Positions 1 to 62,785 of a stretch of 64,000 nt of DNA are shown here, piece by piece. Below the pieces are notes generated by a model. It had not been told where the DNA came from. It worked only from the letters and a program-made list of their open reading frames with translations, and ran no database searches. The stretch is from assembly GCA_963922205.1 (NCBI GenBank), contig CAWUHX010000279.1, positions 248,001 through 312,000 of the forward strand, in the 5' to 3' direction. The translations under genes were made by a program, and so were the position numbers. Within the stretch, counting starts at the first letter, position 1. Each line of letters starts with the position of its first letter. This stretch comes from Romanomermis culicivorax (Eukaryota; Nematoda; Enoplea; Mermithida; Mermithidae).

Positions 1-971
1 AGCTCTTACGGAAGGAAGTTACCTTCCTGTGGTCAAGGCCTCAGGAAGAGGCATTCGACGAACTCTGAAGGCTGTTGTTGAACCCTCCTGACCTGCGCCA
101 TCCCGAATTTTCAAAATCCTTCATACTTCAAACTGATGCAAGTATTTCGGGGATAGGAGCAGTTCTGAGCCAGTCAGACGAAGATGGATAGGACCATCCT
201 GTTGCGTACACCAGTAGAGGGTTAACAGCAGATGAGAAGAACTACACTATTACGGAGTTAGAGACTCTCACTGTTGTCCATTTCGTCAAGCACTTTTGGC
301 CTTACCTCTTTCAACATGAGGTGGTCGTTCAGACGGATCACACTGCTGTTAAGGCTGTGTTAGAGAAACCAAACCCTTCGTCCCGGATAGCTCGGTGGGG
401 CCTCGCGTTAGCTGAATTCAAACTGACTATTCGGCCGCAAAAAGGTCGGTCTAATGGTAATGCCGACGCATTATCACACCTTCCTGATCCTAATTCCCTT
501 GCCGGGGAGAGTATCGACGATACTCCCCTATACAGACCCGAGGGAGAGGTTATGATGATCTCCGATGGTGCGCAGCACCTTGCGAATTCGTCCCATAAGA
601 CCACCAATGGTGCGCAGCGCCTGGCCAGGTCTGAGTCTTATGCAGATGCGCAGCACCATGACCTTCTCGCAACTCAATTTGAGGATCCAGAATTAGCCTC
701 CATTCTTAGATCACTAAAACCCTACGGTGATCAGAAGGATGTTAATGGCTACCACCTGTTGGATAACATCCTTCAGCAGTGGACAGGCGAGTCCAACAAG
801 ATTGTTGTCCCTCGGTCAATGGTTACTACCATTATTGAGGCTCACCATAACGACATTCTTGCTGGACACTTTGGTGCAAAACGTACCGCGAGGCTTATAG
901 CCCCTAGGTACCACTGGCCTTCCCTCAGTACAGACGTCAAGTCGTATGTATGTCCACCAAGGTCATACTGA
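1..971 (+). pseudogene. Ty3/gypsy pol remnant: RNase H and integrase zinc-binding end
   Basis: The third forward frame reads the end of a reverse transcriptase/RNase H polyprotein that begins before the window. RNase H acidic motifs are visible as LQTDAS (about 134-151), TELE (about 256-267) and VQTDH (about 327-341), followed by the ADALSHL end motif near 467-484. In-frame stops lie near 66 and 189, so the copy is dead. Downstream the integrase H2C2 zinc finger begins (H..H near 840-870) but is cut after its first cysteine, and the frame ends at 971. In an intact element this protein degrades the RNA strand of the RNA:DNA hybrid and then integrates the cDNA. The Ty3/gypsy assignment rests on these motifs and on the GPY/F motif downstream. 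Confidence 0.88.
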
Positions 972-1431
972 TTGGGATGAACACCTGCCGTATTCTGTGT
1001 TCGCTGTCAACATTAGCATGAATGAGTCCACAGGGTATTCACCCTTTGAGCTCATGTATGGTCAGACACCCATGCTACCTGTTGATGCAGCGCTCTCATT
1101 CAACTCTCCGGCTCATATCATAGATGTTTCTACTTATGATAAGGAGGTGAAACTGCATTTTACAAATGCCTTGGCCTTGATCCAGAGCAGAATTGAGAGA
1201 TCACAGGCGGCTTATGCTACGTCCTACGACTGCATGGCACGAGATGTCTCTTACAAAGTTGGGGATCAGGTGCTCAAACTGCGCACCACCGGAAAATGTG
1301 GTCTAACGCCCAAATTACTGCCCATTTATGATGGCCCCTACTTTGTCACGAATGTGGCATATCCCAATGTCACCATTTGACTTGACACTGACCAAGAAGA
1401 TACTGTGCATGTCAATCAGCTTAGACGCTAG
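946..1431 (+). pseudogene. Ty3/gypsy integrase C-terminal remnant
   Basis: This frame resumes in the integrase just after the catalytic core. It reads a YSVFAVN..MNESTGYSPFELMYG block, typical of the segment after the catalytic Glu, and then a GPY/F-type module (LPIYDGPYFVTNV) near 1321-1360. A stop lies at 1378-1380 and the coding pattern (VNQLRR) continues to about 1431. Compared with a complete integrase, the whole DDE core between the zinc finger and this point is missing. The frame also changes at the junction near 948. This looks like an internal deletion of the catalytic core, so the copy cannot integrate by itself. Confidence 0.85.
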
Positions 1432-2543
1432 GTGTCACCTGCTCAGCCTACAGAAGAAGAGGAGATACCTTCCACTTCACAGGTCATCGAGATGGCACCT
1501 TTGTTGATCCCGTCAACAAACAGAGATTTTACACAAGATCTCATTGACCCACATCTTGATGCAGAGGTCTCCGACCCATAATCAAATGGCTCTTCTCTTC
1601 TTTACTTACGGACGGGGTCGTCCTTTTTTCGAAGGACCGCCATGCCCCCACAGAATACCCACTCCTGTTCCATGCTGGGATAGCAGTGTAAAGAAGAGAA
1701 CAAGCAGCGATCAATGCATCTAAACTAGGGTATTGCCTCATATCACAGGCGCATCCCTGCGATTGCCTATATCTCCCCTCTAAAATTTTTCTGTTAGTCT
1801 CGTTTCAGATTTCACAAATTAATCAACAATTGGCAACTTCACCGAAGGGATCAACTGACGTCAGCAACTCAATGCATCTCCAATTGACGTCAGCAACTTC
1901 ACGCACCATTGACAAAATTCCACAAGCCAAAATGCACCGAAAAACCACTGGACCATCGACCGCTCGCCATCACCATCACCTGAACGTTTGACCTCCACAG
2001 ACATGCGCACAAGGACGAGGATGCCCTTTTTTGAAGGACCGCCGTGTCACGTGCCGATGGATTTCGTCGAACGTCACGTGATTCACATCACAATTTTTCG
2101 TTATGTTTTTCGTTACGTTTTGTGTATAGTAATTTACATCAATTTTGCGTTTCGTTTTTATACTTTTACATGCAATATGTGTGTGTACTTTTTATGTTTT
2201 GTTTCTGTTTCTGTTTGTGCACTTTTATTTCCGTTTCGATTTATCATTTTCAATCGCACACGTAGACTATGGTATGTACGCCCTAGTCAAGAATTTCGGT
2301 TAGAGATAAGCTCTCCGAGCTCATCGCTGTAATTGGAGCACAACGTGCACCTCTTATCAGTAAAAACTAGCGAGGTTTCGCAACATGAAACGACTAGTTG
2401 GAAATTCTCACTAGTGACGTTCCTATGTTAAGCATGGAGAGTGAAAACTTGCCCCAATGCTTAACCTTGTGAACTGGAAAATGTCTATGTGATCATAGGC
2501 ATCGTCTGCAACGATTTCCACTGCAGAAGTTAGCTTGGGGGAG
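1432..2543 (+). other. Non-coding 3' region of gypsy element 1, ending in a polypurine tract
   Basis: No convincing gene is seen between integrase and the 3' LTR. Two related segments (about 1609-1650 and 2005-2050) share a core reading CCTTTTTT(C/T)GAAGGACCGCC, so this part contains an imperfect direct repeat about 400 bp apart. The region ends with a purine-rich tract (TTGGGGGAG, 2535-2543) directly before the TG that starts the LTR, as expected for a plus-strand primer. Confidence 0.6.
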
Positions 2544-3127
2544 TGTTAACTCTGCCCAAGGCATACTGTAGTTTATAGAGCCCTTTAAAAGGGCATGTTT
2601 CGTCTTTTTGTCACTCATTATTGGGCCTAACTGGTTTTCGTCTTTAAGCCTTTGCGTCCGCGTTCGCCGTCGTCTGACTTTATTATATTTTGTATTGTCA
2701 ACTGCGTTTTGCCGCACGTCGAATAAAATTAGCATATTTGGCCTCCGGCCCTTTATACACGTTACCACTACAGTAACCCGATCGTAGGAACCCGTCCCCG
2801 TCGCTGTTAATCGTAGACCCCCATCGCCCTCGCTGAGGGAACGTCTGTTACCGCCGCCTGCTGATCAGCAGCTGCCGAACCCCACACCGAATCGCCCGGA
2901 TTCCCGTTCCCGTACATCCCGGTCCGTAGGACCTTAACTTGACCCCGAATCTGTCGCCTAGCGTGGAGTAATTTGAGAAGAGCTTTGGTAAGTCTTCTCA
3001 GGGATTATTAGTGTTGAGGGTATATTTGTGGGAGTCTCCCCTAAGCTAGTTTCCCTCGGAAGTACCTTCAGTTAAGAAAGCCCTCAGACCCTTAAGGTCA
3101 GGGCCAATAAGGGGATTTAGGTTAACA
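2544..3127 (+). repeat. 3' LTR of gypsy element 1
   Basis: The LTR starts TGTTAAC directly after the polypurine tract and ends GTTAACA, a perfect 7-bp inverted terminal repeat with TG...CA ends, giving 584 bp. It carries a TATA-like CTTTAAAAGG near 2581 and a poly(A) signal AATAAA near 2724, in that order, as in a working U3-R layout. The matching 5' LTR lies outside the window, so its length cannot be checked here. The 3' half (2760-3120) is clearly richer in GC than its surroundings. Confidence 0.7.
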
Positions 3128-3294
3128 ATCGGGTCCCCTACAGTACGCCATTCTTCGAATGGCACCATCCCTCATTCTGGTGAATGAGGACTAGGGATTG
3201 GCACCCCCGACCCGGCCACATTGTCCATTATTCTACAGCAATAACCCTGTTGAGGCAACCTCTTCCCGCTACTCGGGGCTTCAGTAAAAGTTAG

Positions 3295-3367
3295 GCTCGG
3301 TCTGGGACTTGAACCCAGGACCTTGCGGCTACCGTCCGCACACTCTAACCAACTGAGCTACCCGAGC
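3295..3367 (-). tRNA. tRNA-like sequence in the plus-left LTR (probably not a functional tRNA)
   Basis: A 73-nt cloverleaf with standard arm lengths: 7-bp acceptor (one mismatch), 4-bp D stem, 5-bp anticodon stem (TGCGG/CCGCA) and a 5-bp T stem. Box A is TAGCTCAGTTGG and box B is GGTTCAAGTCC. A TTTT terminator lies 6 nt after the 3' end. The anticodon loop ACGGTAG would place GGT (Thr) at the anticodon, but position 33 is C rather than the near-universal T. I therefore read it as a Pol III promoter captured from a tRNA, not as a decoding tRNA. Confidence 0.7.
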
Positions 3368-3523
3368 AGCGGGAAAGGCGCTCTCTTTTTGCAACAATTC
3401 ATAGTTGAGGTGGCTGCTTTGGCCACTCTCAACATCCCTCCGCCGTCGAGTTTGACGGACCGTCAAGGGCCACCAGTGTTGAGGCAACCTCTTCCCGCCA
3501 CCCGGGGCTTCAGTAAAAGTTAG

Positions 3524-3596
3524 GCTCGGTCTGGGACTTGAACCCAGGACCTTGAGGCTACCGTCCGCACGCTCTAACCAACTGAGCTACCCGAGC
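3524..3596 (-). tRNA. tRNA-like sequence in the plus-right LTR
   Basis: Second copy of the 73-nt tRNA-like unit. Boxes A and B and the TTTT terminator match the first copy. One anticodon-stem pair is lost (TGCGG/CCTCA). The loop is again ACGGTAG with C33. The flanks form an extended inverted repeat (CCTTTCCCGCTGCTCGGG against CCCGGGTGGCGGGAAGAGG), which could compete with the tRNA acceptor stem. Confidence 0.65.
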
Positions 3597-3667
3597 AGCG
3601 GGAAAGGCGCTCTCTTTTTGCAACAATTCGTAGTTGAGGTGGCTGCTTTGGCCACTCTCAACAACCC

Positions 3668-15000: not shown

Positions 15001-18000
15001 GAAAAATGCTACCAAATGTGAAAATTCCAAATTTTGGGATACTGTAGCCCCACGAATTTTATTTTTATGAGTTTAGGAATTATATTTATATTCACCATAT
15101 GAAACTTGTATTACTGTCTTACTTTTAAAATTTATTAAGCTCTAGTAGTTCCACAGTGGAGGTCGGAACTTCCATAAAATACAATTATAAGATAGTGTTC
15201 AAACTTCAGGTTGTGCAAACCTCTAGCAGTACATGAATTTCCGTAATTTTTTGTCAGTAGGTAGAAAACATCGTAAGCTGTCTATTGCATAGGGAATTTT
15301 TCGGTCTATCATCTGAGCTTTAGCAGTATATATGGTGATTTTTGTGAAAAGTGACAATTTTTGCTCTTGTTGAGAGTGGCCAAAGTAGCCACCTCAACTA
15401 CGAATTGTTGCAAAAAGAGAGCGCCTTTCCCGCTGCTTGGTTGGCTCAGTTGGTTAGAGCGTGCAGACGGTAGACGCAAGGTCCTGGGTTCAAGTCCCGG
15501 ACCGAGCCTAACTTTTACTGAAGCCCCGAGTAGCGGGAAAAGGTTGCTTCAACACTGGTGACCGTACCAGGGGCCCCCCTGTTGCTCCAAGGGGGGAGGG
15601 TGGTTGAATGGTATCATACAACATTCCACCCGTAGGATTGATGTTTTAGCCAATTCACAGGTTCCAAACTCGGCCATTTTTGTTGAGCCCTGGTCGGGAT
15701 GGTTACACCTACCCCGACATTGGCCAATGGTGGGACAGCTACGGCGCCACCCAGGAAGCCCTTCAACACTCTCAAAATTTGATGTTTCAAGCACTACTCT
15801 ATTCCTAATAAGCACTTTACACTAATGAATCCTAAAAATCAAAAAAATCGAAAATTGAAAATTTTCGTCTTACTGTAGCTATGCGAGTTTCGATTTTCAA
15901 ATGAAATGAATATCATTTCCGTTCCTAGCGCATCAAGTTACACCAAATATGTGATTTTCAGGTAGGGTTAATTTTTTACTTATCGCAACAAAGCTCCTCT
16001 CAGAAATTGTGAGTTACTAGATCAGGCAATCAATTTCGATGATCTTGAAATGGTTGAAAAGAGTGATCATCAAAAATACTATTTTATGAAGGACAAATTT
16101 ATTGGTTAGAGTCAAAAAGCTTTATATTGTTTTGAGTAAAAACTTGGCTGCAACTTCGCCGCATGAATCATTTCACAATGAATGGAGTATAATAATCATA
16201 TATGAAAATTAGAGCTTGAAAATATTTGGTACCTGCACTGCATTTTAAGAACTAGGTACACCTCATTAAATTTATTCAATTAGTGTAAAATTTCATTTAC
16301 CTATATTTACCTATTTAGTTTTTTTACAAAATCCTTCTAAATAGGAAAACGACGAAAATAAAGATTGGGTAAACAAAGCTTTTACAGTAAGATTTTTCAT
16401 TCAACAAATTATTAAAGAATGATTGAATAAGCGCATACATTTTCAGTCTCAGTTGACGAACGGTTCAGCATCAAATTGTAAAAATCTAAAATAGTACTTG
16501 CTTTCCACTTTTATAATTTGGAAACACTTCAAGAAAAGCAGACTATAAAGAACTATTTTGCGCATAAAATGATGAATAAGGTCATCAGTGAAAATGTAAA
16601 AAATAATTCGTCAGATTTCAATTCTAGTGGATCGAATACCCAATATTCTTTTGTAAGGAAGCAAATCTATCCCTCAGGATTATATCATTTTCGTTGCAAA
16701 ATGGGTAACATAACAATTTTTCCCGTGTTTCTAGGGACTTGTGTGAAAACCCCCAATTTTTCATAGTTGAATTGTAGTATATTGTACCAGAAAACTCTCG
16801 AATAAAGACTTTTGTTTTAATAAGACAAAAGAGCAATCAATAATTTGCACGCAGCCTGTTTTGAGAAGTTCACAGAGTTAAAACAGACCTCAATAAAGTA
16901 CTTTTTTGTGTTGAAAATATAAAAATTTAGTAAAATGTGTCAAGGTAATGAATACATTTGCTCTAAGGCAAATGGCAGTCTTTAAAATCCGATCTACTCA
17001 CTGATTACTGTCACAGTTATCAAAAACGATCTGTTTTCACTTTCATACTATAAATGAGGATCAAAATAGGCGGACCTTTATGGTTCTTTTTTAATCATCA
17101 CCATTACATTCTTTTTCTGAGTTGCCACTATACATGTACAGCATAGAAATTAAGGGACGTCATATCCTAATTTTTCAAAAGTGCTCAAAAACAGTCAAAA
17201 TTAAGCTGTAAAACTTTAGGTGTACATATCTCAAAGTGCTCCTCCAATTCCAACAAAAAACTTTTTTCCTAATAATTTTCAACATTTTTGTATGAAATTT
17301 TCAACTGTTGATATGATCAAGTTTTCAAAGATCATTGAACTTTGTTAAAATCATATTTATTTTATGCTTAATATATGATTTTGTAGTATTTATTCGAACA
17401 AAATTACTTCTGTATATCATGATGTAAAAAAAATATTCCAGGGAGGTCAGCCAGGATTCTGCCCAGGGTGAGCCAGAGTTCAGCCCAGTGTCAGAACCTC
17501 AGTAAACTCCATCAGGAATATGTATGGGTGGTACCAGAGTGTAGTAATCTCTTTGCGACAATGACTAGCTTCCTAAGCCATGAATTCAGAACTTTGTTGA
17601 GGTATGAGGAAGTTAGTTCTGACCAATGACGGATTTTCCTCATTTCTAGTCACCATACATGTGCATGGCACTGGTTTCAGGCTGGGGATAAATCCTAAAA
17701 TCGCTGCGCAGCGAATTTTTTTTCATAATTTTATAAAAGTAGAGTTTATTTAGGATACCAACATGATGTTCAGTTATTTCTACTGACGGGCACTTTTAAT
17801 GTTCAGTGTGAATATCGATTTGTCAATAATGGAGCTGTCTAATAAACAGGTTGTTATTTGTCAACAAGAACCTGTTTATTAGACGACCACAAAACACTTG
17901 CAACCACTCATATACATGCACACAGAGTATGGTCAGGGTATGGATTTACCCTACCTCACACATGTAATTGGGGTGGAGTGCTATAGGAACCCCCCCCCCC

Positions 18001-27000: not shown

Positions 27001-28556
27001 TTATTTTCATTGTTATGAAGATTCATTTTTCCAGCCTTTTAGAATGTAAAAACCTGAAAATTTTCCGGCGCCTATCCGGTTACGAGCCTGTGAATATAGG
27101 TAGGTACGTTTTAAAGAACGCTGTCGAAATATACGTTTACAATAACACATTTCTCAATAATGCTCAATACAATCACGAATAACTTGATCACTATTGTAAA
27201 AATAAATGTTACTGCGCGCTAATAAATTTTTTTTGCGCTAATGAAGTCGAACTGACATTAGCGGCACTGCTAATGGGTGTGCCGCTAAAAAAACAGGTAA
27301 TGTGCGCTCTTTGGTCGAAGTTCAGAAAGTGTGTCTTGAAATTGCAAATATATTCGGGTATATGACTTCTCTCAAAAACTAATTTTTTGAAGTCGAGCAC
27401 ATAAAAGCTGCAAGTTTTTTTGATAAACTATTTCTTGTATGTGTAAACTAATCAGGAAGAAGTCGGTTTTAGTCCAAAACAAGAAATTCATCAATAAAAA
27501 AATTTCTAACCTGCTTAGTTTCTTTATTCCACAGTGTCCAAAATTTAGTTTCGGCTTTGTCCACTTCACGACTAGGGATTTTAAAGGCTATGGTTTCGTA
27601 GGGTTCCGCGGCGAACAACAGATATTGCCAGCGTTTGTCCGGCGGTTCAATTTTCTGTTCGTAAGCCGACATGAATCTGTGTCGCGGATTGACGCCGTCG
27701 CCGATTTCAGGGTAATCGATTTGAAAAAGTAGACTTTGCTGATTGTTGGACGGATCTCGTTGCTTCGTCACTATGAGAAGTAACACAATTTTTCGGTAAA
27801 AATGGTATTTTTTGAAAACCCTAACCTTTATAACCCGGACGACCGATTTTGACGAATTTTCTCGTTTCGACACGTGGCTTATCCATCGCGGGCATTCCTG
27901 CCGGTTGATCGCGGGCATCTTGAGCGGCTCGACGGGCTCTGCGATTTTTTTTCGAATAATTAAAAACACGTAGGAAATTTTTAAGGAAGGAAATTTTAGG
28001 TGAACTTTAACCACTCATAAGTCTGTTCAAAACGAAGGTACGCAAACGCAAATGTTTTTGAATATATCTCAGCGAGATCTATCGATCGATGCCCGATTTA
28101 TTACGTTTTGGAAGGAAGAATTCTTTCTAAAGCCGTATCATTAATATAAAATCATCACTCTAATTTTCATAGGTACATAACACACGGATGCGTCTTTTTT
28201 TTGAAGTTACTAAAAATTCTCAAATTTTGAAGACATTTCGTTCTAAAACTTACAAATTAGCCTGATGCTTTTTCCCCTGCGTATGAGCCAAATAACTGCC
28301 TTCGTTATTGTGCAAGGTTAAACATAATTTGCATTCGTAACCGCCCAAATGATTTTTCATAAAATAAGGATCCTGAATGATGAACCGAGTAACATTATGA
28401 AAAAGAGTTTTGTAAGTTACTGAACGTCACTTTATTTAAATCAATAGTTTCTAAAGCTAATTGACGTAAGCGTTCGCGTCGGTCGCGGTTGGCATCCGAC
28501 CAGGACGCAACGCCGCCTGTGCCAGTCTTTCCGCCGGGCCGATGTTGAAAATCCAT
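8812..28556 (-). CDS. SF3A2: SF3A2, U2 snRNP splicing factor 3a subunit 2 (five exons)
   Basis: The protein is the SF3a66 subunit of the U2 snRNP, needed to form the 17S U2 particle and the prespliceosome in the nucleus. Joining five exons gives 828 nt, 275 residues plus stop, in frame at every junction. Residues 1-42 are the conserved N-terminus (MDFQHRPGGKTG, RRERLRQLALETI). Residues 54-78 are the C2H2 zinc finger (C56, C59, H72, H78). Residues 112-206 are the conserved core, including VKIGRPGYK, VTKQRD, QQSLLFQIDYPEI, RHRFMSAYEQ, RWQYLLFAAEPYETIAFK and NKETKQ. Residues 207-275 start FFLQFAFR and end in a short Pro-rich tail. That tail is much shorter than in vertebrate SF3A2. The last intron is 18.5 kb against 55-315 nt for the others. 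No frameshift or premature stop is seen, so the gene looks functional. Confidence 0.93.
9225..9920. repeat. Long inverted repeat K, left arm
   Basis: The reverse complement of this segment matches 15030-16010 over its length, apart from a 400-bp insertion in the right arm and scattered changes. Shared landmarks are the phrase around GGGGCTACAGTATCCCAAA (about 9894-9912 here, reverse complement at about 15037), TTCCACAGTGGAGGTCGGA on the right arm, and GCACTT..ACACTAATGAATCC. The arms could be two independent copies in opposite orientation or the ends of one 6.8-kb unit. Confidence 0.6.
11583..12668. mobile_element. Family L/O element, decayed copy (L1)
   Basis: Positions 11690-12405 match 28695-29402 in the same orientation (TTTGATCA(T/C)ATCGGATACAG onward). 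It is flanked by blocks rich in GGCTTGT/ACAAGCC, and the outer ends (CATAGTTTTTTTAGC; right end AAAAAAAACCCTG) are hAT-like inverted termini. No clean 8-bp duplication was found. A degenerate GC hairpin lies near 11760. Confidence 0.5.
12776..13904 (+). pseudogene. hAT transposase relic (BED-finger, CGGBP1-like hAT group)
   Basis: Three fragments in order match one hAT transposase. The first (12844-13103) has a BED-type finger (GKIFMCDLCD..., with a downstream HIKS) and then ...QVLFQAGIPIFEL, the layout shared by CGGBP1 and related hAT proteins. The second (about 13320-13521) reads STYMVLTFSNLKALY..LKHVSCLARRIHLVCE, the hAT segment with conserved Cys and His, then KLIRKAPARINLFKERTD. The third (13576-13904) continues LPLPPDAIVTRWETWI, the hAT TRW motif. 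A 54-nt intron (13522-13575, GTTTGT...TTTCAG) joins the last two in frame. The catalytic segment between the first two fragments is missing, and a stop lies at 12848. It sits inside the SF3A2 intron on the opposite strand. Confidence 0.72.
15368..15768 (+). mobile_element. TRIM-family element, second insertion
   Basis: Starts TGTTGAG and ends TTCAACA, flanked by a perfect CTCT duplication (15364-15367 and 15769-15772), inserted in repeat K. The first 187 bp (15368-15554) match the LTR of the element at 3248-3663, including the tRNA-like unit. They are followed by CTGGTGACCGTACCAG, a primer-binding-like site identical over 15 nt to that of the gag element at 7582. The remaining 214 bp include a purine tract (AAGGGGGGAGGG, about 15591-15602), but a second full LTR is missing. 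It may be a truncated or recombined copy. Confidence 0.65.
15435..15507 (+). tRNA. tRNA-like sequence in TRIM LTR (degenerate)
   Basis: A 73-nt unit with box A TGGCTCAGTTGG, box B GGTTCAAGTCC, and TTTT 6 nt after the end. The T and D arms are kept. The anticodon stem has two mismatches (TGCAG/ACGCA) and the loop again reads ACGGTAG. It is better explained as a Pol III promoter than as a working tRNA. Confidence 0.62.
17837..17884. repeat. Perfect 16-bp hairpin
   Basis: GTCTAATAAACAGGTT (17837-17852) is followed by its exact reverse complement (17869-17884) with a 16-nt loop. Not part of any element I recognised. Confidence 0.7.
17957..18319. mobile_element. Family A MITE, copy 2
   Basis: 363 bp. 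The ends CACACATGTAATTGGGG and CCCCGTTACATGTATG are inverted. The flanks are CCCTACCT (17949-17956) and CCCTACCC (18320-18327), 7 of 8 identical. Inside are a C run, CCATATGGCTA repeats in both orientations, and a GAAAAAATCGAATTTTTT block shared with all family A copies. Confidence 0.75.
18784..19017. mobile_element. Family J MITE, copy 2
   Basis: 234 bp with ends CAGACATG and CATGTATG, flanked by a perfect 8-bp duplication TTTAAAGC (18776-18783 and 19018-19025). Opposite orientation to the copy at 8235-8448. Confidence 0.78.
19279..19453. mobile_element. Family G hAT-like MITE, short form
   Basis: 175 bp, starting CAGAGGTCACC and ending GGGGCATTCTG (inverted CAGA ends). The flanks GGTCTGGG (19271-19278) and GGTCTGAT (19454-19461) share 6 of 8 bases. 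Nearly the same length as the copy at 59142-59317. Confidence 0.65.
19598..20858. mobile_element. Family A MITE, copy 3, split by a family G element
   Basis: The left end CGCACATGTAACGGGG is at 19598 and the right end AATTACATGTATC at 20858. The outer flanks CTTATGAA (19590-19597) and CTTGTGAA (20859-20866) match at 7 of 8. The element is interrupted by G2 at 19968-20836. Removing G2 and one duplication leaves about 384 bp, a normal family A length. Confidence 0.75.
19968..20836. mobile_element. Family G hAT-like element, long form (869 bp)
   Basis: Begins CAGAGGTCCCCAAGG and ends GGGGTGCTCTG, flanked by a perfect 8-bp duplication ACTCCCAT (19960-19967 and 20837-20844). Its ends match the 175-bp G copies, so the short forms look like internal-deletion derivatives of this longer form. 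No transposase frame is kept. A short CAGTG...CTACTG segment lies outside it at 20989-21078. Confidence 0.78.
21925..23027. mobile_element. Family N element, decayed copy
   Basis: Shares with N1 (31773-32622) the phrases GTGAAACTTGGGGGAAAAAT near 21968, a TTGGTTGCACA-type phrase near 22983, and the right end GTATGCGAAAAACGCTG. The left boundary is approximate and no target duplication was found. Confidence 0.45.
23160..24565. repeat. Inverted repeats Q with A-rich and GC-rich centre
   Basis: A CAAGTGTCTCGCTACTCCAA phrase near 23185-23210 is repeated in inverted orientation near 24475-24500 (GTAACGAGACACTTGGAG), with a further related copy near 24530. Between them lie an A-rich tract (about 23330-23500) and a GC-rich stretch (about 23510-23605) of alternating GCGCC-GAA-type words. 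Probably the ends of an old DNA element; the superfamily is not known. Confidence 0.45.
24854..25270. mobile_element. Family A MITE, copy 4
   Basis: Ends TATACATGTAAC and CCAATTACATGTATG enclose the full family A body in the orientation of copy 3. No matching 8-bp flanks (AAGGCATA against GTCCAAAA), so one boundary may be rearranged. Confidence 0.65.
25661..26029. mobile_element. Tc1/mariner-like MITE (369 bp)
   Basis: Imperfect inverted ends of about 48 bp. The left end starts CAGTGTGTTTCATAACGCGA and includes CGAATTTTTTTAGCGCAACAC; the right end is its reverse complement with about ten changes. TA flanks both sides (25659-25660 and 26030-26031). No transposase frame. Confidence 0.62.
26085..27296. 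mobile_element. hAT-like element with AGCGC-rich ends
   Basis: The left end CACTGTTTTTTTTAGCGCGG resembles the reverse complement of the right end (CCTGTTTTTTTAGCGGCAC). Both subterminal regions are rich in GCGCTAAT words. The flank match is weak (GTGCGACG against GTGCGCTC, a few bases offset). Inside are hairpins at 26252-26268 and 26944-26962. It lies 215 bp from the exon 4 donor. Confidence 0.45.
27511..27770 (-). CDS. SF3A2: SF3A2 exon 4
   Basis: 260 nt, from acceptor CTCATAG to donor GTTAGA. Encodes the most conserved block (VTKQRD through WNKETKQ). It ends on a codon boundary, so exon 5 must start in phase 0; the exon at 9021 does. Confidence 0.93.
27826..27938 (-). CDS. SF3A2: SF3A2 exon 3
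   Basis: 113 nt, completing the Leu codon and encoding ARRAAQDARD...KFVKIGRPGYK, then one base of the next Val codon. The acceptor is AAATCGCAG and the donor GTTAGG. Intron 2 (27939-28253) is 315 nt and intron 3 (27771-27825) is 55 nt. Confidence 0.92.
28254..28372 (-). CDS. SF3A2: SF3A2 exon 2 (zinc finger)
   Basis: 119 nt, from acceptor TTCATCATTCAG to donor GTAAGT. Encodes DPYFMKNHLGGYECKLC and the rest of the C2H2 finger through GKKHQANL, close to the metazoan consensus. The final Leu codon is split (phase 2) with exon 3. Confidence 0.93.
28431..28556 (-). CDS. SF3A2: SF3A2 exon 1
   Basis: 126 nt, residues 1-42, from ATG at 28556 to the donor K|GTGACG. The start is chosen because MDFQHRPGGKTG is the conserved SF3A2 N-terminus. 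Intron 1 is 28373-28430 (58 nt). Confidence 0.93.
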
Positions 28557-47716: not shown

Positions 47717-49403
47717 GGTGACCGGACATTCGAGCGCAGGACAATAGGGCGTGGACATTAGAGTGCAGACATTAGGGCACAGGGACATTAGAGTGCGGAC
47801 ATTAGAGTGCAGAGACATTAGAGTGCAGGACAATAGAGCGCAGGGACATTAGAGCGCAGGACCATAGAGCGCAGGGACATTAGAGCACATGACAATAGAG
47901 CACAGGGACATTAGAGCGCAGGACAAAAGAGTGCAGACATTAGACTGCAGGGATATTAGAGCACGGACATTAGGGTGCAGGACAAAAGAGTGCAAGGACA
48001 ATAGATTGCATCTATTGGTTCGAAAAAATTTTAACAAACTTTCCGTGGTCTGCAATGAACGCGAATTTTAAATTGCTTTTGAACATGAAAAAAGAATACT
48101 GAGCAAGCAGCTTTATTTCAAAAGCTGACAAAAAATTGTGTGACTGATTCTGTATGCAGGTTAGAAATTCAAGATGCATTCATACCTGTAAGACCTCCGA
48201 CCAGTTGGGAGGGGGTAGAAAAAAATCGAAATTTTTCCCAAAAAAGGCCAAAAAACATACACTTTTTTGAAAATTTTTTCAATTTTTTTCCAAACTGGGG
48301 GGATCTGGGGGGGGGGGAAATGATTTTGGGTACAGGGTTGGCCAAGTTGGGGGGGGGTCCCCCCAACCCCCCCCAAGTACAGGTATGGATGCATTCGAAA
48401 ATAACAAAATGAAACAATGTTATTCGAAGGTTCAAAGGTCAAATATGTGCGAATTTTTTTGCAACTTTTGACAAGTATTCCATGGTGGAAAAATGCTTTG
48501 GCTTTGACCTGAACTTCAGAGACACGAAAAAATTAAAGAATGTATTTTTGGGCTGAAAGGTAGTTATTTTCAATTATTTTATTTTCGTTTTTTTGTTTTG
48601 CTCTGATCTAATTTTCCTGTGCTCTATTGTCCTGCGCTTTAATGTCTCTGTGCACTACTCCATGCTCTTTCGTCCTGCGCTCTAATGTTCTTGCGCTCTA
48701 TTGCGCCTATCCGTTATTGTCCTGTGCTCTATTGTCTCAATAACCGACACAGAATTTGTTTTGGGGGAGGGACGGAAATTTTTTATTTACAATTTTTATA
48801 TTTTTGTTAAATTATTTGCTTCGATATGCACACGATTTTTTCTTTTTTTGTTAATTTTTTCTAAATAAGACAAAACGAAAAAAAAGATGAAACAATGAAA
48901 CAACTGGCAAGAAAATAGAGGATAGATGAATGGAGAAAAAATTCGAAAAAAGTTAATTTTGGCTGAAGTATTTAATTAAGTTTTGTAGATTTCTACATTT
49001 AACCATTATCTTGATAATTTTAATTTTTATACAATGAGTTTAGGAGGCGCAGCCGCTCCCCCCTGCAACCACTACTGTATTGTCTCCAATGTCCGTGCTC
49101 TATTGTCCCTGCACTCTATTGTCCTGCGTCTAATGTCCGTGCTCTAATGTCCCTGCGCTCTAATGTCCGCGCTCTAATGCCCGCGCTCTATTGTCCTGCG
49201 CTCTATTGTCCTTGCGCTCTATTGTCCTTGCGCTCTATTGTCCCTGCGCTCTATTGTCCCACGCTCTAATGTCCCTGCACTCTAATGTCCTTGTGCTCTA
49301 TTGTCCTGTGCTCTAATGTCTTTGCGCTCTAATGTCCATGCTCTAATGTCCCGGCGCTCTAATGTCCGCACTCTATTGTCCTGTGCTCTAATGTCTCGGT
49401 ACC
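47717..49403. mobile_element. Element D: inverted termini made of a 15-17 bp minisatellite
   Basis: The left end (47717-48013) is an array of ACATTAGAGCGCAGG and ACAATAGAGCGCAGG variants. The right end (49074-49403) is the same unit inverted (CTCTAATGTCCCTGCG), with a further inverted block at 48597-48740. The outermost bases (GGGTGACCGGACATT; inverted right end GGTACCGAGACATT) are related. TCAAAA occurs at both junctions, a possible short target duplication. It contains B7 and no transposase frame. Confidence 0.6.
48181..48387. mobile_element. Family B MITE, copy 7 (inside element D)
   Basis: 207 bp, ends CATACCTGTA and TACAGGTATG, with a perfect 8-bp duplication GATGCATT (48173-48180 and 48388-48395). 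Confidence 0.85.
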
Positions 49404-55740: not shown

Positions 55741-56513
55741 GTCATCACCTTCCTAGAATGTCCCATCTCCTTGATTAATATATTATCTTTGATATTACTT
55801 CTTATTATTTATTACTTTCATAAAATCTTTTTATGGTATTCAGAAGTTTTTGAATTTAGTGAACCCAATTTTTCTGCATTTGGCACATGATTAAAAGAAA
55901 CATGTCTCATTACCTATGTTGGGGATGTACTTATGGTAGCAGTCATCCCACATCTATGCAAAATTGGTGAAATCAACAAAGTCCCAATTGGACCAGAAAG
56001 ACAGGATGTTTATCATTCGGAAAATTGTTTGTGTTGTGAGCAAGTTGCATCCATGTACTTTTATATTTGTACTGTTTCACCCAGTAAATCAGAATGCTGA
56101 CAGCCCACAACAATTTGAATAATATTTTATTGATTACTATATTTATTATTTATTATTCTTTACTTACACACTCAGCAGAGGCGGGAGCCTTTTTACATGG
56201 GAACCATTACCAGGGACAGTCCCCACATTCCTGGATATCATTATAGTGAGTTCTTTATATTTGTGTAAACATTTTGGAAGCATATGGGAAGACCCTGATT
56301 GCCCATCAATTGCAAGAGTTAGAGTTTCCAGTTACTGATTAGTGACTGAAGGTTGTGTTTATTTCTGCTTAAAGACTGTTGCACTGTGTTTAGTTGATTG
56401 CTAATAGGAAGCTCCTTTAAGTGACCTACAGTAGTCAGTTGGATATAAGCTGATAGTATCTTGAGTTAAATTGCTGATGTCTTCTGACCTAAGCAGAGAA
56501 GTAAACATAATAA
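55741..56513. other. 5' flank of gypsy element 2
   Basis: AT-rich, with no clear LTR boundary. A TGGTGGCTTCTGAC primer-binding-like site sits near 56512, just before the gag frame. No direct repeat of this region was found after 62785, so LTRs are either lost or too diverged to see. Confidence 0.35.
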
Positions 56514-58165
56514 GTGGTGGCTTCTGACACTTGCAATACAGAAGAGCCCAGAGTCACCCGAGGTGTTACAAAACCAAAAGGTTTTTACAAAGATCTAGGA
56601 CTCAAGATATCCAGAAATACTGAGGATTTAGCCTCTGGTACAACTTTACCGAGGACTCCGCCTGGTATAAAGCATGATGAGTCAGATAAATCCTTCCCAC
56701 TGCCTGTAGTATCTAATACTATGAGCAAGCGGAAGGACTTGGATTCAAGTGCTATAAGCCAGATGGCTGAGGTAAAAATGGACCCAGTAAATGCCCCCAA
56801 TTCTGCAGCGCCTATAACGGCCCACAATAATAATAACATTGATAATATGGTCGCGGCAAAGGAACTATTAACTGCCAAAGATAGAGATGCTCAAATTAAT
56901 GCACCTATCAATAGAAGGCGGAAATTGCCCCAGGATCAAATGGATCCATTTATTGATCAAATGAAAGAGGAATGTTTGTGATGACCTCAACAATGATTGG
57001 ATACGTATCATCAGGAATATGTTAACCATAATTTTGAAATGATTCGGGACAATTACCATCACAATCCATTGAAGGAATTATGGTTTGAAATGAGCCAAAA
57101 GGATGACAAAATTTGATGGCTAAATGTCGAAATTGATAAAATAGCTGATTCAATGATTGGAGTCCAAGGGCTATTGGAAAAGTTCATCCTGGATTAAAGG
57201 GAAAAGGATATCTGAGTGAGTAGGACTACAGACAGAAAATTGCAAACTCAGAGTATAGGTGGAACTTTGCCAATGATCTCTGCAACCTGTATTGCCAATG
57301 ACCAAAGGTTATGGCAGATAGAAGTGGATGAGTCACAGCAAAAGTTCACAGTCAAACCTGCTGCGAAATCAAAGGTTTCTACGGAAAAACGTGTAACTGA
57401 ACATGCTGTTTGAGAACAAGCAAGTGATATAGTTGCTTAACTTTTCCAAGATGCTGATGAGGAAGCAGTAGGAAGTCATCGGGAAAGCAAACATACTACA
57501 TCGAAGCACAAATGATCCAAGAACTCCACATGAGGAAATTCATCAGATTCTGATGACTCCTTAGTGGATGGATTGTAGCCTACTGTGTCAGATATAGTGG
57601 AAGCCGTAAAGCCAAAGCTACTCCTAGATGAAATAAGTGAAACGCAAGTTCTCAGTTTCCTAAATGATTTAGAAGCAGAGTTCACAACAGAGACTACCCA
57701 TAAATGAAGCAGGCTGATTTCCGAGCACTTTCTAAGGGAGTACCAAAAGCTGCTCCCAAAAGGTTCAAAAGTTACAAAAAAGCCTGAAGAAAGTTACTCA
57801 AAGTGCAAGCTTCAGATTCAAATGTCGGTATGCAAACCAGGGAACTGATGAACATAAATCAGGAGTTTGATGAACCTCCAGTGAAATTCCTCAAGAAAAT
57901 TAGTGTGCTAGTAGACAGATTATACCCTAATAAGACTGAAGAGTTGAGAGATCGCTTCATAATTGATACCTTTTTGTATAAAGCATCTGAGGAGTATCAG
58001 ATGAAACTGCTCGATCAAAGAGAGAAGTATGAAACATGGCATGATCTGGCAGAGGATGTGCACAAAATAGATAAGCGGAATACAGCTGCTTACAAAAAGA
58101 GAGAAACTGCGGAATCTCCAATTGTGATAAATGAAGTGACCATCCTGGTGGAAAAGAGTTCATGA
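56514..58165 (+). pseudogene. Ty3/gypsy element 2, gag remnant
   Basis: An open frame of 155 codons (56514-56981) is followed by stop-broken sequence and then a second open stretch (57803-58165, about 120 codons). The latter has capsid character: REL.NINQEFDEPPVKFLKKISVLVDRLYPN, then DRFIIDTFLYKASEEY. The position upstream of protease and RT, and the absence of other conserved domains, support gag. No CCHC knuckle was found. Several stops and frame changes show it is inactive. Confidence 0.6.
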
Positions 58166-58552
58166 AACCATATTGTTGATAATATAGAGATAACTCTCAT
58201 GGTACGTCCAAGTGTAAAACCCTCCAATGGAAAAATGCACAAGGACGTAGTTGGGATAATCAATATGGTAGAAACAGATGTTTCAGGCAACAGTTTGGAG
58301 GCTTTAGAAGAGGATACATTGGGGGAGCAGTAGAGGAGCTCATGCCGTAGGTTATTATGGTGATAATGTGGATTATGATACTTATCAACAATTCATTGAT
58401 TACCAGAATGGATTGTGGAATGAGCAACTCTATATGGCACCACAACTGCCGGTGCCTAGCCAACAGCTGATGATCACAGCCCCCCCCCTTAAGGTCAGGT
58501 TCAAACCACTAACCCTAGCCCAAGTAGGCAAGCAGTTTCCATTAGTCAACCA

Positions 58553-59071
58553 TTGGTGTCGAGTCAGACAGAGTTGGGATCTGCTGGAAGTGTTAATAGC
58601 ATTGCCACTACGGGTCAAGGTGTTGATGAGATGAAATGGCCTGGAGTATTGAAGTGTGCCATGATGAAGGAGAATTATTCAAAGGTTACAAAGGCATTCA
58701 AGCATGGGATAATTCCAAATCGGGAGGAACGATTAAGGCTTTCTAAGTTTCCTCAAACTCTCCCATTTCACATTAATGTGACCGTATGTAATACTAACAC
58801 CAAGGCTTTACTGGATACTGGTGCTCAGTGTTCGGTGATGTCATCATGGGTTCTTAAGGAAGCTTTTGATGAAGAATATACTGGATACCCTGAGATACTA
58901 AAAGTCACTGTTGCTGATGGTGTAGTAGTACATGGACTTGGTTACATTCAATTCAAAATGCATTGTGAATTTGGAGTTTTCTTGGTAAAGGCCATAATCA
59001 TTCCAATTGCTGAGGAAAATCTTATAATTGGAATGGATTTTTTAGCACATCCAGATGTTGGAGAAGCTTAA
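58553..59071 (+). pseudogene. Ty3/gypsy element 2, aspartic protease
   Basis: Contains ALLDTGAQCSVMSS near residues 84-97, the active-site DTGA motif of retroviral-type proteases, and ENLIIGMDFLAHPDV near 155-169, the usual second conserved block (ILG-type). The frame stops at 59071, 71 bp before an inserted hAT MITE. In an intact element this protein would release Gag and Pol products from the polyprotein. Confidence 0.8.
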
Positions 59072-59141
59072 TGTAGTTGAGAAAGCTATAAGTGTTGTAC
59101 CTAAAGATCATGCAAGTCATATACAAGCTATTGATTGTATA

Positions 59142-59317
59142 CATAAGTCCCCAAGGTCAGATTTTCCAGGTAGGGGTAAAGTTGAAAATTTCTGAGGGTA
59201 GTGTAGCTAAACGTCCACTAAACACTGCTTTTTGTCTCAAAATTAGGCACCCAGTGATCAATTTTTAGGACTTTAGGTGGGGGTACCCCCCTCATACCCC
59301 TCCTATGGGGTTGTCTG
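59142..59317. mobile_element. Family G hAT-like MITE inserted in gypsy pol
   Basis: 176 bp starting CATAAGTCCCCAAGG and ending GGGGTTGTCTG, flanked by a perfect 8-bp duplication ATTGTATA (59134-59141 and 59318-59325). The pol coding pattern resumes after it. The insertion is therefore younger than the gypsy element. Confidence 0.83.
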
Positions 59318-59325
59318 ATTGTATA

Positions 59326-60636
59326 AGGGAAGCACCTATAGTACATTCAATTCCTGAAGATGATCAATACCCCAGGATACGCCAATTAGGTATAGTGGTT
59401 CCAGTGGTGTCTTGTACGAAAGTATACATACCAGGTGGAACTGATGTGCTTATTAAGGCAAGATAATGAGAATGATCTTCTAAAACAGATCTGAATTGTT
59501 TGGTCATAGAAGGAAATAAAGAGGAGAAGAAATTTAGAATTGATAGCACACTGGTTGATGTTAAATGGGAAGGTTTTGTCCTGATGATTTCGAATAATAT
59601 GGGTTCGGGATTCCAATTGCAACCTAATCAGGTCATAGGATACTATGACTCAATATTACAAGAAAATTCAGGAATATCAGAAGTACAAAGTACGAGTTGT
59701 GGGATATTTAGTGTTGAGGATAATTTTAATGCCACTCCCAGAATGTCAGTGCATGATGCATTGGCATTTAGGGAAGGGCTATATAAAATGATCTCCAAGG
59801 CTGTTATCACTGAGGAATTAAGGGAAAAAGCTGTAGCAAATTTATCTAAATACAGAGATGTTTTCAGCTTACCCAATAATCCCTTAACTATAACACTGTA
59901 TCTTATGTGCAACATTGATACTGGTAATGCAATGCCAGTGACAGAACATTATTTCAGAGCTCCCATAAACCAAAGATCAGGGATTAGAGCTCAAGTCCAG
60001 GATATGTTAGATAAAGGAGTTATTGAACCGAGCCAGTCACAGCAGGCTGCTCCACTTTTCCTAGTTGTAAAAAAGAACAGTGCTGGGAGACCAGTTGTGG
60101 ACTTCAGAGGTACAAATGAAGTTACTAAGGACAATAGGTATCCTATACTTAGAATAGATGATTATTTGGATTGTCTAGGTAATGCCAAATTTTATTCCAT
60201 CTTGGATCTAAAGTCCAGATATTGGCAAGTCCCACTTGAGAAATGTAGCAAGGAGAAAACTGCATTTATATGTCAGGAAGGCTTGTATCAGTTTAATGTT
60301 ATGCCTTCCAGACATAAGAACACACCTGCAGAGTTTCAAAGGATGATAGAAAGAGTTTTGCATGGTCTTGTGTCGAAAATTTGTTTGGTGTATATTGATG
60401 ATATTGTATTCTCCAAGACTTTTGATGAACATTTGGAGAATTTAGAGTTGGTCTTGCAAGCTCTTCAGAAAGCAAAGCTAACACTTAAACCAGAAAGTGT
60501 GAATTTCTTCCAAAAAAGCTCATTTTCTTGGACACATACTGGATGAAATCTCACCAGATCGGAAAAAAGTGAAAGCTATTATGGAATTCAAATTTCCCAA
60601 TAGGGTGAAGGGAATGCAAAGGTTTTGAGGTATATT
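59326..60636 (+). pseudogene. Ty3/gypsy element 2, reverse transcriptase
   Basis: The open frame from 59500 carries RT blocks in order: DMLDKGVIEPSQSQQAAPLFLVVKK, RPVVDFRGTNEVT, FYSILDLKSRYWQVPL, AFICQEGLYQFNVMP, the catalytic VYIDDIV (near 60389-60409), and EHLENLELVLQAL. The three catalytic aspartates (DLKS and the IDD pair) are present. A frame change near 60515-60530 moves the remaining connection region into another frame, and a stop lies at about 60627. In active elements this enzyme copies the RNA to cDNA in the particle. Confidence 0.88.
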
Positions 60637-61591
60637 GCAATGGTGTAAGAAATTTATCCCAAACCTTGCACAGCTCACTGAACCTTTGTACAAGCTTACC
60701 ACTACAGGGAAGAAGAAATTTGTAGCTACAGAGAAACATCGTAGAGTATTTGAAGAACTGAAAAAAGCACTCACCTCAGTGCCATTTCTACAGTATCCTG
60801 TTTTGGATGGAACTGGGAAGTTCATTCTCCAAACAGATGCCAGCAGAAATCCTTAAGGAAGATGAGAGGAAGTAGTGTGCTACAGAGGGAGAATGCCTAG
60901 CAGTTGTCTATGGTCTGAAAGTTTACCGGCACTATTTGTTTGGACAAAAAGTATTGATCAAAACTGATCATAAGCCACTTTTATCAATGAATGTCAATAC
61001 TCAAACCAATGATAAATTGAAAAGATGGTATTCCATTATAAATCAATTTAATCATAGATTGGAGTATGTGCCTTTTAGAGAAATGTGATGGCCTATTTCC
61101 TCTCAAGAAAAGATGGACACGAAGATGCTAAGGACAAAAACCCACCAAAATGGGAATATGTCTTAAAAATTCAATTTCGTTATTTCCGAACTCAAAACAA
61201 CAAAATTGAAAGCCAAGATTTGGTACGAGAATTTCAGAGGATAAGGGACAAAGAGGTTGAAAGTAGAGATGAAAAAGATGTCCCCAAGCAGACCAAGGAA
61301 TTGATGAATATCCAGGAGTTGACGGTAGAAAAAGAAAATATTGCACCAACTACCAGAGATATATTTCAAGTCAGAGATGATGTTCAGAAGCTTATGGTAG
61401 TTGATGCAGTCAGAACTAGAAGACAAGGGAAAATTCAGGATCGGATCCCAGCAAATCCAGAATCAAGTACATATGTACCAATTGATCCTGAAAATATTGC
61501 TTGGCTATTCACAAATAGAGAAAAGGAGTTTGAAGAGGTAAAAGAAGGAAAGAAGAAGAGACTGATGATGACAACATCAATTATCCAATAG
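60635..61591 (+). pseudogene. Ty3/gypsy element 2, RNase H and linker
   Basis: LTEPLYKLT..GKKKF and FILQTDASRNP start the RNase H (first Asp in TDAS, about 60832-60843). After stops and a frame change come ATEGECLAVVYGL (Glu) and IKTDHKPL (second Asp), then LKRWYSIINQF and a MAYFLSRKDG end motif at 61085. The following 150 codons (to 61591) are a charged linker without a recognised domain. At least three breaks are seen. Confidence 0.78.
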
Positions 61592-61750
61592 ATTTAAAGG
61601 TTATATCTCAATTGCAAAAAGAAGCCACTAATTTTACCCCTATTTGGGATAGATTAGGTGTCAAAAGCACTACGAAGTATCATAGTGGATTCTATGAGGA
61701 TAACAGAGTTCTTTATTAGGGAAACTGAGGGACGTGGCCGTGATTAGATC

Positions 61751-62785
61751 ATGGTCTCAAATTTCCTCAGAGACAGCATTCTTCACCAATATCATGGAGC
61801 CATTATAATGACACACCAAGGGTTCAAAAGAATTCTGAGTGTTGTCAAACAGTGGTTCTGGTGGCCTGGCATTGAAAAAGATGTCAGAAATTGGTTGAAG
61901 TTTTGTCCTGTCTGCCAAGTAGCTACTCCCAGTAAAAGCTCCATATCCCCATTGACTAGAGGGTCCCTTGGATATTGTGTCTGTGAACATAGTAGGGATT
62001 GCTCACTTGAGGGAATGTCACCCATATGTCATTGTCTTTCAGGATTATTTCACTAAATTGGTTGAAGCTATATTGATTCCTGATCAGACGATTGAAACCA
62101 TAGTGGATGTGTTCTTAGAGCATGTGATATTTAGGCATGGTACCCCAAGAAAGCTTCTTAGTGATTATGGATCTGGATTTAATTGGGATCTTATGAAAGC
62201 GGTCTGTAAACTGCTTGAGTGCAGAAAAATTTTCACAACAGCATACCACCCACAGGGTAATGATATGGTTGAGAGATTTAACCAAACACTAATAAAGCAG
62301 CTGGGAAAAGTAGCAATTGAGGATAACAACAAATGGCCAAGGTACCTCAGCGCAGCATTATTTGCATATAATGCCACACCTCATGCAGCAACAAAATGTT
62401 CACCATTTTCACTGCTGCGTGGGAATGAAGATAATTTTGATATCAATTTCACTGCTGCCCTTAAAATAGTCATGCCAAATGACTATGAGGCTTACAAGTA
62501 TGTTTTGGCTACCCATCTTACAAATTTGTATGAAAGTATTGCCGAAAACATACAAAAAGTCGCTAAAGACAGCAAACCTCTGGTTTTAAAAACCACGGTT
62601 GGGTGGTGTTGAAATTTGACAGACAGAAAAAACTGGGGCTACCTTGGCAGGGACCATATATCATCATCGATGATAAGAGATTGATGGAAAATGTGCTTAC
62701 AATAGCAGATTGGAATAAGCCCCTGAAAAAGCAGGTCATATTGGCAGGTAGGCTAAAACACTTTCGATATGAAGGTACCAGATAG
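61751..62785 (+). pseudogene. Ty3/gypsy element 2, integrase
   Basis: The H2C2 zinc finger is intact (HQYHGAIIMTH...WPGIEKDVRNWLKFCPVCQ, about 61771-61918). A frame change near 61965 leads to the core. It has SVNIVG where the first catalytic Asp is expected (Asn here), then LLSDYGSGF (second Asp, about 62157-62183) and MVERFNQTL (Glu). AYNATPHAATKCSPFSLLRG follows. Another frame change near 62600 leads to a GPY/F module (WQGPYIIIDD, about 62642-62671). In intact elements it inserts the cDNA into the host genome; this copy is broken. Confidence 0.85.

Follow-up and report, generated by a model that had tools for sequence, protein, structure and literature searches.

The name Helenus was given by Kojima in 2024 to TRIMs whose LTR includes a tRNA-like sequence; they are reported from six animal phyla and are flanked by 4-bp target site duplications (TSDs) (PMC10886601). 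According to the main text of that paper, they are shorter than 1 kb, each LTR contains a tRNA-like unit in which both box A and box B occur, and a primer binding site (PBS) and a polypurine tract (PPT) are present. Animal families combine the 4-bp TSD with a Gypsy-type primer site, tandem arrays are reported for one family, and the primer of some bivalve families is tRNA-Ile. Ajax is another animal TRIM with a Pol III-type unit, in this case derived from 5S, with a 5-bp TSD and known from two nemerteans (PMC10886601). In plants, the LTR of the Cassandra TRIMs likewise holds a Pol III-type small-RNA gene (PMC10886601), namely 5S rRNA, and the elements form long tandem arrays (PMC7215508). Retrozymes are non-autonomous LTR elements whose LTR carries a small-RNA motif of a different kind, a hammerhead ribozyme (PMC4918200, PMC9695139).

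The replication of such elements can be compared with that of Ty1 and Ty3, whose PBS does not derive from the primer and in which the first plus strong-stop strand is described as a dead end (PMC5371799). In the Ty3/Gypsy group the primer is a tRNA, part of which is copied by the first plus strong-stop strand; the copied part is given as 12 nt for Ty3 (PMC5371799).

The element analysed here lies in a stretch of 64,000 nucleotides (the window) from the mermithid nematode Romanomermis culicivorax, class Enoplea (contig CAWUHX010000279.1, positions 248,001 to 312,000). It occupies 3248-3663 (416 bp) and consists of two 187-bp LTRs (3248-3434 and 3477-3663), 97% identical, around a 42-bp interior (3435-3476). 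The LTR termini are TG...CA with the inverted motifs TGTTGAG/CTCAACA, and the whole is bracketed by the TSD ACCC (3244-3247 and 3664-3667), in keeping with the 4-bp rule of the family. The sense strand is taken to be the minus strand, because the tRNA-like units fall on it. Read in that direction, the 5' LTR (3663-3477) is followed by CTGGTGGCCCTTGACGG, then GGCGGAGGGA, then the 3' LTR (3434-3248); the PBS is TGGTGGCCCTTGACGG (3460-3475, minus strand), and the PPT GGCGGAGGGA (3435-3444, minus strand) adjoins the 3' LTR. No ORF of at least 120 aa overlaps the element. The initial annotation had proposed the same repeats, interior and duplication, with primer-site and polypurine-like ends to the interior, and the coordinates agree throughout.

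Each LTR contains a tRNA-like unit on the minus strand, called both by ARAGORN, which labels it tRNA-Thr GGT, and by Rfam (RF00005). The unit of the 3' LTR (3294-3367) scores 48.9 bits and has box A at 3349-3360, box B at 3305-3315 and a TTTT inside 3285-3290. The unit of the 5' LTR (3523-3596) scores 44.6 bits, with box A at 3578-3589, box B at 3534-3544 and a TTTT inside 3514-3519. Boxes and terminator are present in both LTRs, as stated in the initial annotation; its cloverleaf is recovered by two programs, but at a length of 74 nt rather than the 73 nt first given.

With two TG...CA LTRs, a length below 1000 bp and no coding region, the element has the make-up of Helenus and is a Helenus TRIM. 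It had initially been taken for a new type of element; tRNA-bearing TRIMs of animals with 4-bp TSDs have carried that name since 2024 (PMC10886601), and what is newly added is the nematode host, since Nematoda are missing from the hosts in Table 1 of that paper. The derivation from 5S, the 5-bp TSD and the nemertean hosts set Ajax apart from the present element. The likeness to Cassandra drawn in the initial annotation is a sound one with regard to the Pol III-type gene inside the LTR, here a tRNA-like unit instead of 5S rRNA. Cassandra itself and the retrozymes were rejected as identifications: an Rfam scan of the window lists tRNA only, with no 5S match and, at gathering score, no ribozyme. 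No report of Helenus or of any TRIM in nematodes was found in the open-licence literature. Among the other contents of the window is an exon of the splicing factor SF3A2 (27469-28011, minus strand), with several nematodes among its nearest named relatives. Elsewhere in the assembly, on the 1-Mb contig C117, a COX1-like sequence with 11 TGA codons, translated with code 5, shares 97% protein identity with Romanomermis culicivorax, although this may be a copy in the nucleus.

The family is large. When up to two mismatches are allowed, a 22-base T-arm pattern matches the genome searched (359,112,060 bases, 595 contigs) 1073 times (512 + 561). Reversed, it matches nowhere, so the number is far beyond chance. 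From 60 fetched loci, L001-L030 picked by LTR likeness and L031-L060 by contig order among exact pattern matches, in each case ignoring the flanks, and from the second copy in the window, 44 independent places were drawn. One LTR or a piece of one is present at 12 of them, two LTRs at 19 and three to six at 13. An exact 4-bp TSD flanks 21 of the 31 places with both ends complete, compared with 3 of 930 control pairings of flanks from different places; at the other ten the 4-bp match is absent, and some of these have a tail, are hybrids or follow a PPT. The initial annotation had called for such a search for copies and flanking duplications.

Of 49 distinct LTR-interior-LTR units from L001-L060, matched by script, 48 have an interior of 42 bp, 47 have the PBS CTGGTGGCCCTTGA and 41 have the PPT GGCGGAGGGA; the 26-bp interior of L046 is below the length reach of the script and stands outside the 49. 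The constant PBS and PPT and the 4-bp TSDs bear out a TRIM with integrase-type ends, as first proposed. In the array at L028 a block of three units recurs with the same identity pattern, which speaks for an origin by unequal crossing-over. Three loci (L043, L047 and L048) have a PPT-like GGAGGGA or GGAGAGA before a Helenus LTR and no left LTR found upstream, and are perhaps truncated arrays. Tandem repetition of another sort is seen elsewhere in the window, where a 15-16 bp motif (GGACATTAGAGCGCAG) forms two arrays, opposite in orientation and about 1 kb apart (47724-49395).

The tRNA-like unit would be a Pol III promoter in use. It is also conceivable, though rather unlikely, that the element has an ordinary Pol II promoter and that the unit is a SINE-derived passenger without a role in transcription. 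The TTTT fits a passenger, as the 5' LTR, too, has it immediately behind the tRNA, where it should halt Pol III early; a full-length RNA must therefore read through it. In the window copies the anticodon loop reads ACGGTAG, with C at position 33, and two forms occur at tRNA positions 7 and 9 (LTR 74/76). The box columns of young copies are not clearly less variable than their flanks, and selection on the boxes is not evident from this measure. The consensus of both boxes is nevertheless kept in all three window copies, which argues against a passenger. So does the lack of AATAAA or ATTAAA in all 78 Helenus LTR copies, a weak point because 7 of 12 Gypsy-family LTRs are without it as well.

As RNA, the LTR at 3477-3663 (minus strand) has a very stable fold of -84.8 kcal/mol (z -5.07 against shuffles). 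Behind the TTTT there is an inverted repeat of the bases that precede and begin the tRNA (in the other LTR, CCCGCTGCTCGGG ... CCCCGAGTAGCGGG). Given this repeat, a long hairpin could enclose the tRNA in an RNA that reads through the TTTT, but not in one that ends there.

The PBS points to a host tRNA as primer. All five tRNA-Ile genes fetched have the anticodon AAT, A58 and no encoded CCA. With the CCA added, tRNA-Ile(AAT) forms 16 contiguous pairs with the Helenus PBS, of which 13 are Watson-Crick and 3 are G-U, whereas the best pairing with 30 other tRNA genes compared is 6. Primer sites of tRNA-Ile type are shared with two Gypsy families of the same genome, f1 (14 contiguous pairs, at L165) and f3 (15, at 56515 in the window). 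Self-priming by the LTR's own tRNA was rejected, its 3' end (...ACCGAGCC) not being complementary to the PBS. Derivation of the LTR tRNA from the primer is not supported by a weak test, in which tRNA-Ile falls outside the six best of 31 genes and, for two of three queries, at least four of the six best rows are tRNA-Phe copies.

At two loci, L014 and L002, the LTR end is followed by the complement of a CCA-tailed tRNA-Ile in place of the interior. A genome search was made with the tRNA stretch of L002, and the best 40 of 68 candidates were scored: five are tRNA genes, in which the match starts behind the CCA, 33 (L002 included) start with a copy of the CCA, and two are others. Fifteen of the 33 CCA-bearing rows were fetched and 16 stand outside the counts. 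The 15 lie on Helenus LTRs in two cases (L107, L109) and otherwise on LTRs of families f1 (seven), f2 (three), f3 (two) and f4 (one).

The pattern of a Helenus LTR end plus tRNA-Ile complement occurs genome-wide at 16 exact places and nine with one mismatch. All 24 of these 25 places that were read (20 newly fetched, C194:154870 left out) have a Helenus-type LTR end. The tRNA copy is 16-19 nt long in 17 of the 24, ending at or just before m1A58 (offset 19), in a pattern to which stops before 16 nt are invisible. It reaches 32-51 nt in six (L135, with four mismatches, L014, L157, L107, L109 and L002). The last, L151, proves to be an ordinary element whose PBS has mutated. Copies of a primer tRNA at genomic LTR ends were not recognised in any report in the open-licence literature.

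The positions of m1A58 and I34 in tRNA and their effects on reverse transcriptase are established, and both positions stand out in the long copies. Eighteen of these were compared, 15 from the search with L002 (two Helenus, 13 other LTRs) together with L002, L014 and L157; L135 was excluded on account of mismatches. Nucleotide 34, at offset 43 counted from the CCA end, is C in all 17 that reach it, whereas all five tRNA-Ile genes have A34; this is the change expected of inosine being read. Offset 19 (A58) is altered in seven of the 18, four times to C and three times to A. The next most altered, offset 21, has four changes (three of CpG type), and seven further offsets have one each. As the query L002 itself has C at offsets 19 and 43, the hit list leans to C-bearing copies. 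Three observations stand against an effect of this bias: the A34 genes appear at ranks 7-11, the non-gene rows among ranks 2-21 were all read (15 of 15), and the four Helenus copies that the pattern of LTR end plus tRNA complement finds regardless of base 34 and that extend to it (L002, L107, L109 and L157) all have C. Because the long copies read position 34 as inosine, the primer is identified, by sequence, as mature tRNA-Ile(IAT).

What follows the tRNA copy differs between the 24 places. It is the end of a Helenus LTR at L125 and L159, a PPT and LTR at L127, an inverted Helenus LTR or its end at L107, L141, L143 and L149, and a TSD directly at L014; L151 has an ordinary interior after the LTR end. 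L153 and L163 run into LTR sequence of other families, and the remaining 13 tails run on into sequence given no identity. The join at L143 is palindromic, with a Helenus LTR end, an 18-nt tRNA copy, an inverted tRNA copy and an inverted LTR, and looks as if it came from a plus strand folded back on itself. At L096, an f1 LTR and a tRNA-Ile copy to about nucleotide 34 are followed by the LTR end ACAACAAG again, with its own primer site and interior, perhaps through strand transfer in the wrong register.

These tails and the joins to Gypsy sequence might be chance neighbours or later rearrangements and not products of reverse transcription. This is very unlikely. The whole unit of LTR, tRNA copy and tail ends in ACA or CCA and is bounded by an exact 4-bp TSD at 7 of 16 places with a usable left flank, L127 and L151 included among the 16 (L125 GAAT, L139 AGGT, L149 ATCA, L153 CTAG, L163 GATC, L014 CTAC, L107 ATGA), against 3 of 238 mismatched pairs in the control; eight of the 24 places are outside this count, three being preceded by a PPT and five having no recognisable LTR start at the expected place. 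The modification-type changes at nucleotides 58 and 34 also speak against chance. In its favour are the nine of 16 tails with no TSD within the stretch read, the short stretches of bases shared at several joins, and the f1 part of L153, which has just 10 bases past a shared six. For 12 tails of the Gypsy families, a TSD is clear only at L108, where ATTG stands directly behind ATCA; a 4-base match at L101 lies at offset 57 and not behind CA. The C of the terminal ATCA of L108 is the inosine position, so that a CA present only through inosine being read as C seems to have served as an integration end.

In two of the Helenus copies, a single TSD encloses both the copy and LTR sequence from a different family. 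At L153 the tRNA copy is followed by 16 bases identical to the inverted start of the f1 LTR, the first six of which also match the tRNA copy, and the TSD is CTAG. At L163 it is followed by an f2-type LTR through to its end. For this locus a prediction of AACA and then GATC had been made before fetching; the sequence has TACA and then GATC. The LTR end thus differs from the AACA of f2 copies, but the TSD is as predicted, and this agreement is a further point against a chance join. The hybrid insertions suggest that cDNA of f1, and of f2 as a candidate partner, arose together with Helenus cDNA in one particle, and hence that Helenus may be mobilised in trans by Gypsy proteins.

Coding sequence is recognisable in two of the families in question. 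The f3 family is that of a decayed Gypsy element within the window, with an LTR at 55917-56512 (plus strand; 79% identical to the LTR of L108 over 608 bp), followed by AG and the tRNA-Ile-type primer site from 56515, whose 15 contiguous pairs include three G-U. Its decayed protease, reverse transcriptase and integrase ORFs (58493-62609, plus strand) are in the order PR-RT-IN, with an integrase score under the Pfam cut-off. The f1 family has a Gypsy-type protease downstream: on contig C141, a stretch nearly 3 kb beyond the PBS of an f1 copy matches the f3 protease with 60% identity over 88 aa. For f2, an LTR without interior is found at L061 with the 4-bp TSD ATTC, and the f2 LTR of the window is preceded by GGGCCGAGGGA, which is close to the Helenus PPT. 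Another Gypsy-type element, upstream of 3248-3663, is marked at 192-1377 (plus strand) by RNase H and integrase zinc-binding matches; in a self-comparison, no part of 1-3244 has a second copy in the window.

The second Helenus LTR copy of the window is itself half of a hybrid. The left half (15368-15554, plus strand) is 94% identical and has its tRNA-like unit at 15435-15508. The right half (15555-15768, plus strand) is the interior and LTR of a different family, TRIM-B, with an LTR of about 168 bp and a tandem period of about 215. The whole is flanked by the TSD CTCT (15364-15367 and 15769-15772), and by its sequence it unites two TRIM families in one insertion. TRIM-B is abundant and occurs in arrays (92 matches from the best 40 of 1263 candidates); Rfam finds no tRNA in it.

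The same evidence bears on a reading of 3248-3663 as a tRNA-derived SINE that a LINE moved by target-primed reverse transcription and that stands in tandem by chance. A tRNA-like unit with both boxes, in many single and tandem copies, is what a SINE would offer, yet this reading is extremely improbable. As the signs of a SINE, the initial annotation had named units standing singly, with A-rich tails and flanking duplications of long and variable length, and this is not the picture at the 44 places. The TSDs are 4 bp and exact, the ends are TG...CA with inverted termini, and the PBS and PPT are constant between units. An A-rich tail stands directly behind none of the 44, as judged by eye from the printed flanks, and the LTR ends carry fused copies of a tRNA primer. 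A functional tRNA-Thr gene family expanding on a repeat, as the ARAGORN label tRNA-Thr GGT might suggest, can be dismissed with as much assurance: the top identity to 31 tRNA genes compared is 56/74, to Phe or Thr-TGT in turn, the loop ACGGTAG lacks the U33 that is the rule in tRNA anticodon loops, and the Thr anticodons among the matches listed (30 tRNA loci) are AGT, TGT and CGT, with no GGT.

As a whole, the element is with high confidence best explained as a non-autonomous LTR retrotransposon of a mermithid nematode, a TRIM of the Helenus type, with the following life cycle. The tRNA-like unit of the LTR would act as an internal Pol III promoter, giving a short RNA that would extend from one LTR's tRNA, across R, to the TTTT of the following LTR. 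This RNA would enter Gypsy particles, as the two hybrid insertions suggest. Mature host tRNA-Ile(IAT) then primes the minus strand at TGGTGGCCC..., as the genomic primer copies show. The plus strand begins at GGCGGAGGGA, and the first plus strong-stop strand enters the tRNA and often halts at or just before m1A58. Normally this strand would be discarded and the PBS taken from the element RNA. Integrase inserts the product with a 4-bp TSD, as the insertions show, and recombination between LTRs would give rise to solo LTRs and arrays.

For the origin of the PBS the evidence is indirect. A tRNA-type PBS is found in none of the 49 ordinary LTR-interior-LTR units, which suggests that the PBS comes from the element RNA and is not renewed from the primer tRNA, in agreement with Ty1 and Ty3; repair always favouring the template strand could give the same count. 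The copies at LTR ends depart from Ty3 in length, with 16-19 nt or more of the primer against 12 nt, and in that the strands are found integrated (PMC5371799).

The discarded strands appear to have a second fate. By jumping to another cDNA end they too would become integrated, as insertions of an LTR, a tRNA copy and a further sequence, to judge from that sequence and from the TSD in 7 of 16 testable places. Taken together, the observations make it probable that plus strong-stop strands with a tRNA copy, supposed dead ends, have repeatedly been rescued by a jump to another cDNA end in the same particle, be it their own LTR, a Gypsy LTR or another TRIM, and integrated with a normal 4-bp TSD. 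The genome would thus hold a record of the identity of the primer, of m1A58, of the change of A34 to inosine and of the sharing of particles, the end of L108 and the building of TRIMs being part of the same account. The same route may build new TRIMs, with the LTR of one family and the body of another, as at 15368-15768 in the window. SINEs are said to have originated as strong-stop DNA, an idea attributed to Ohshima.

As far as the open-licence literature listed tells, the nematode host and the evidence for primer and partners are new beyond the Helenus paper, in whose main text the terms 'nematod', 'chimer' and 'strong-stop' are absent and tRNA copies or hybrids are not reported under those words (PMC10886601). 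The known hosts of TRIMs that carry a tRNA thereby come to include Nematoda. For an element of this type, both the primer and the likely partners can be read from its insertion junctions, where the main text of the Helenus paper argued from the likeness of the PBS (PMC10886601), and the same junction search is applicable to other genomes with recent LTR elements.
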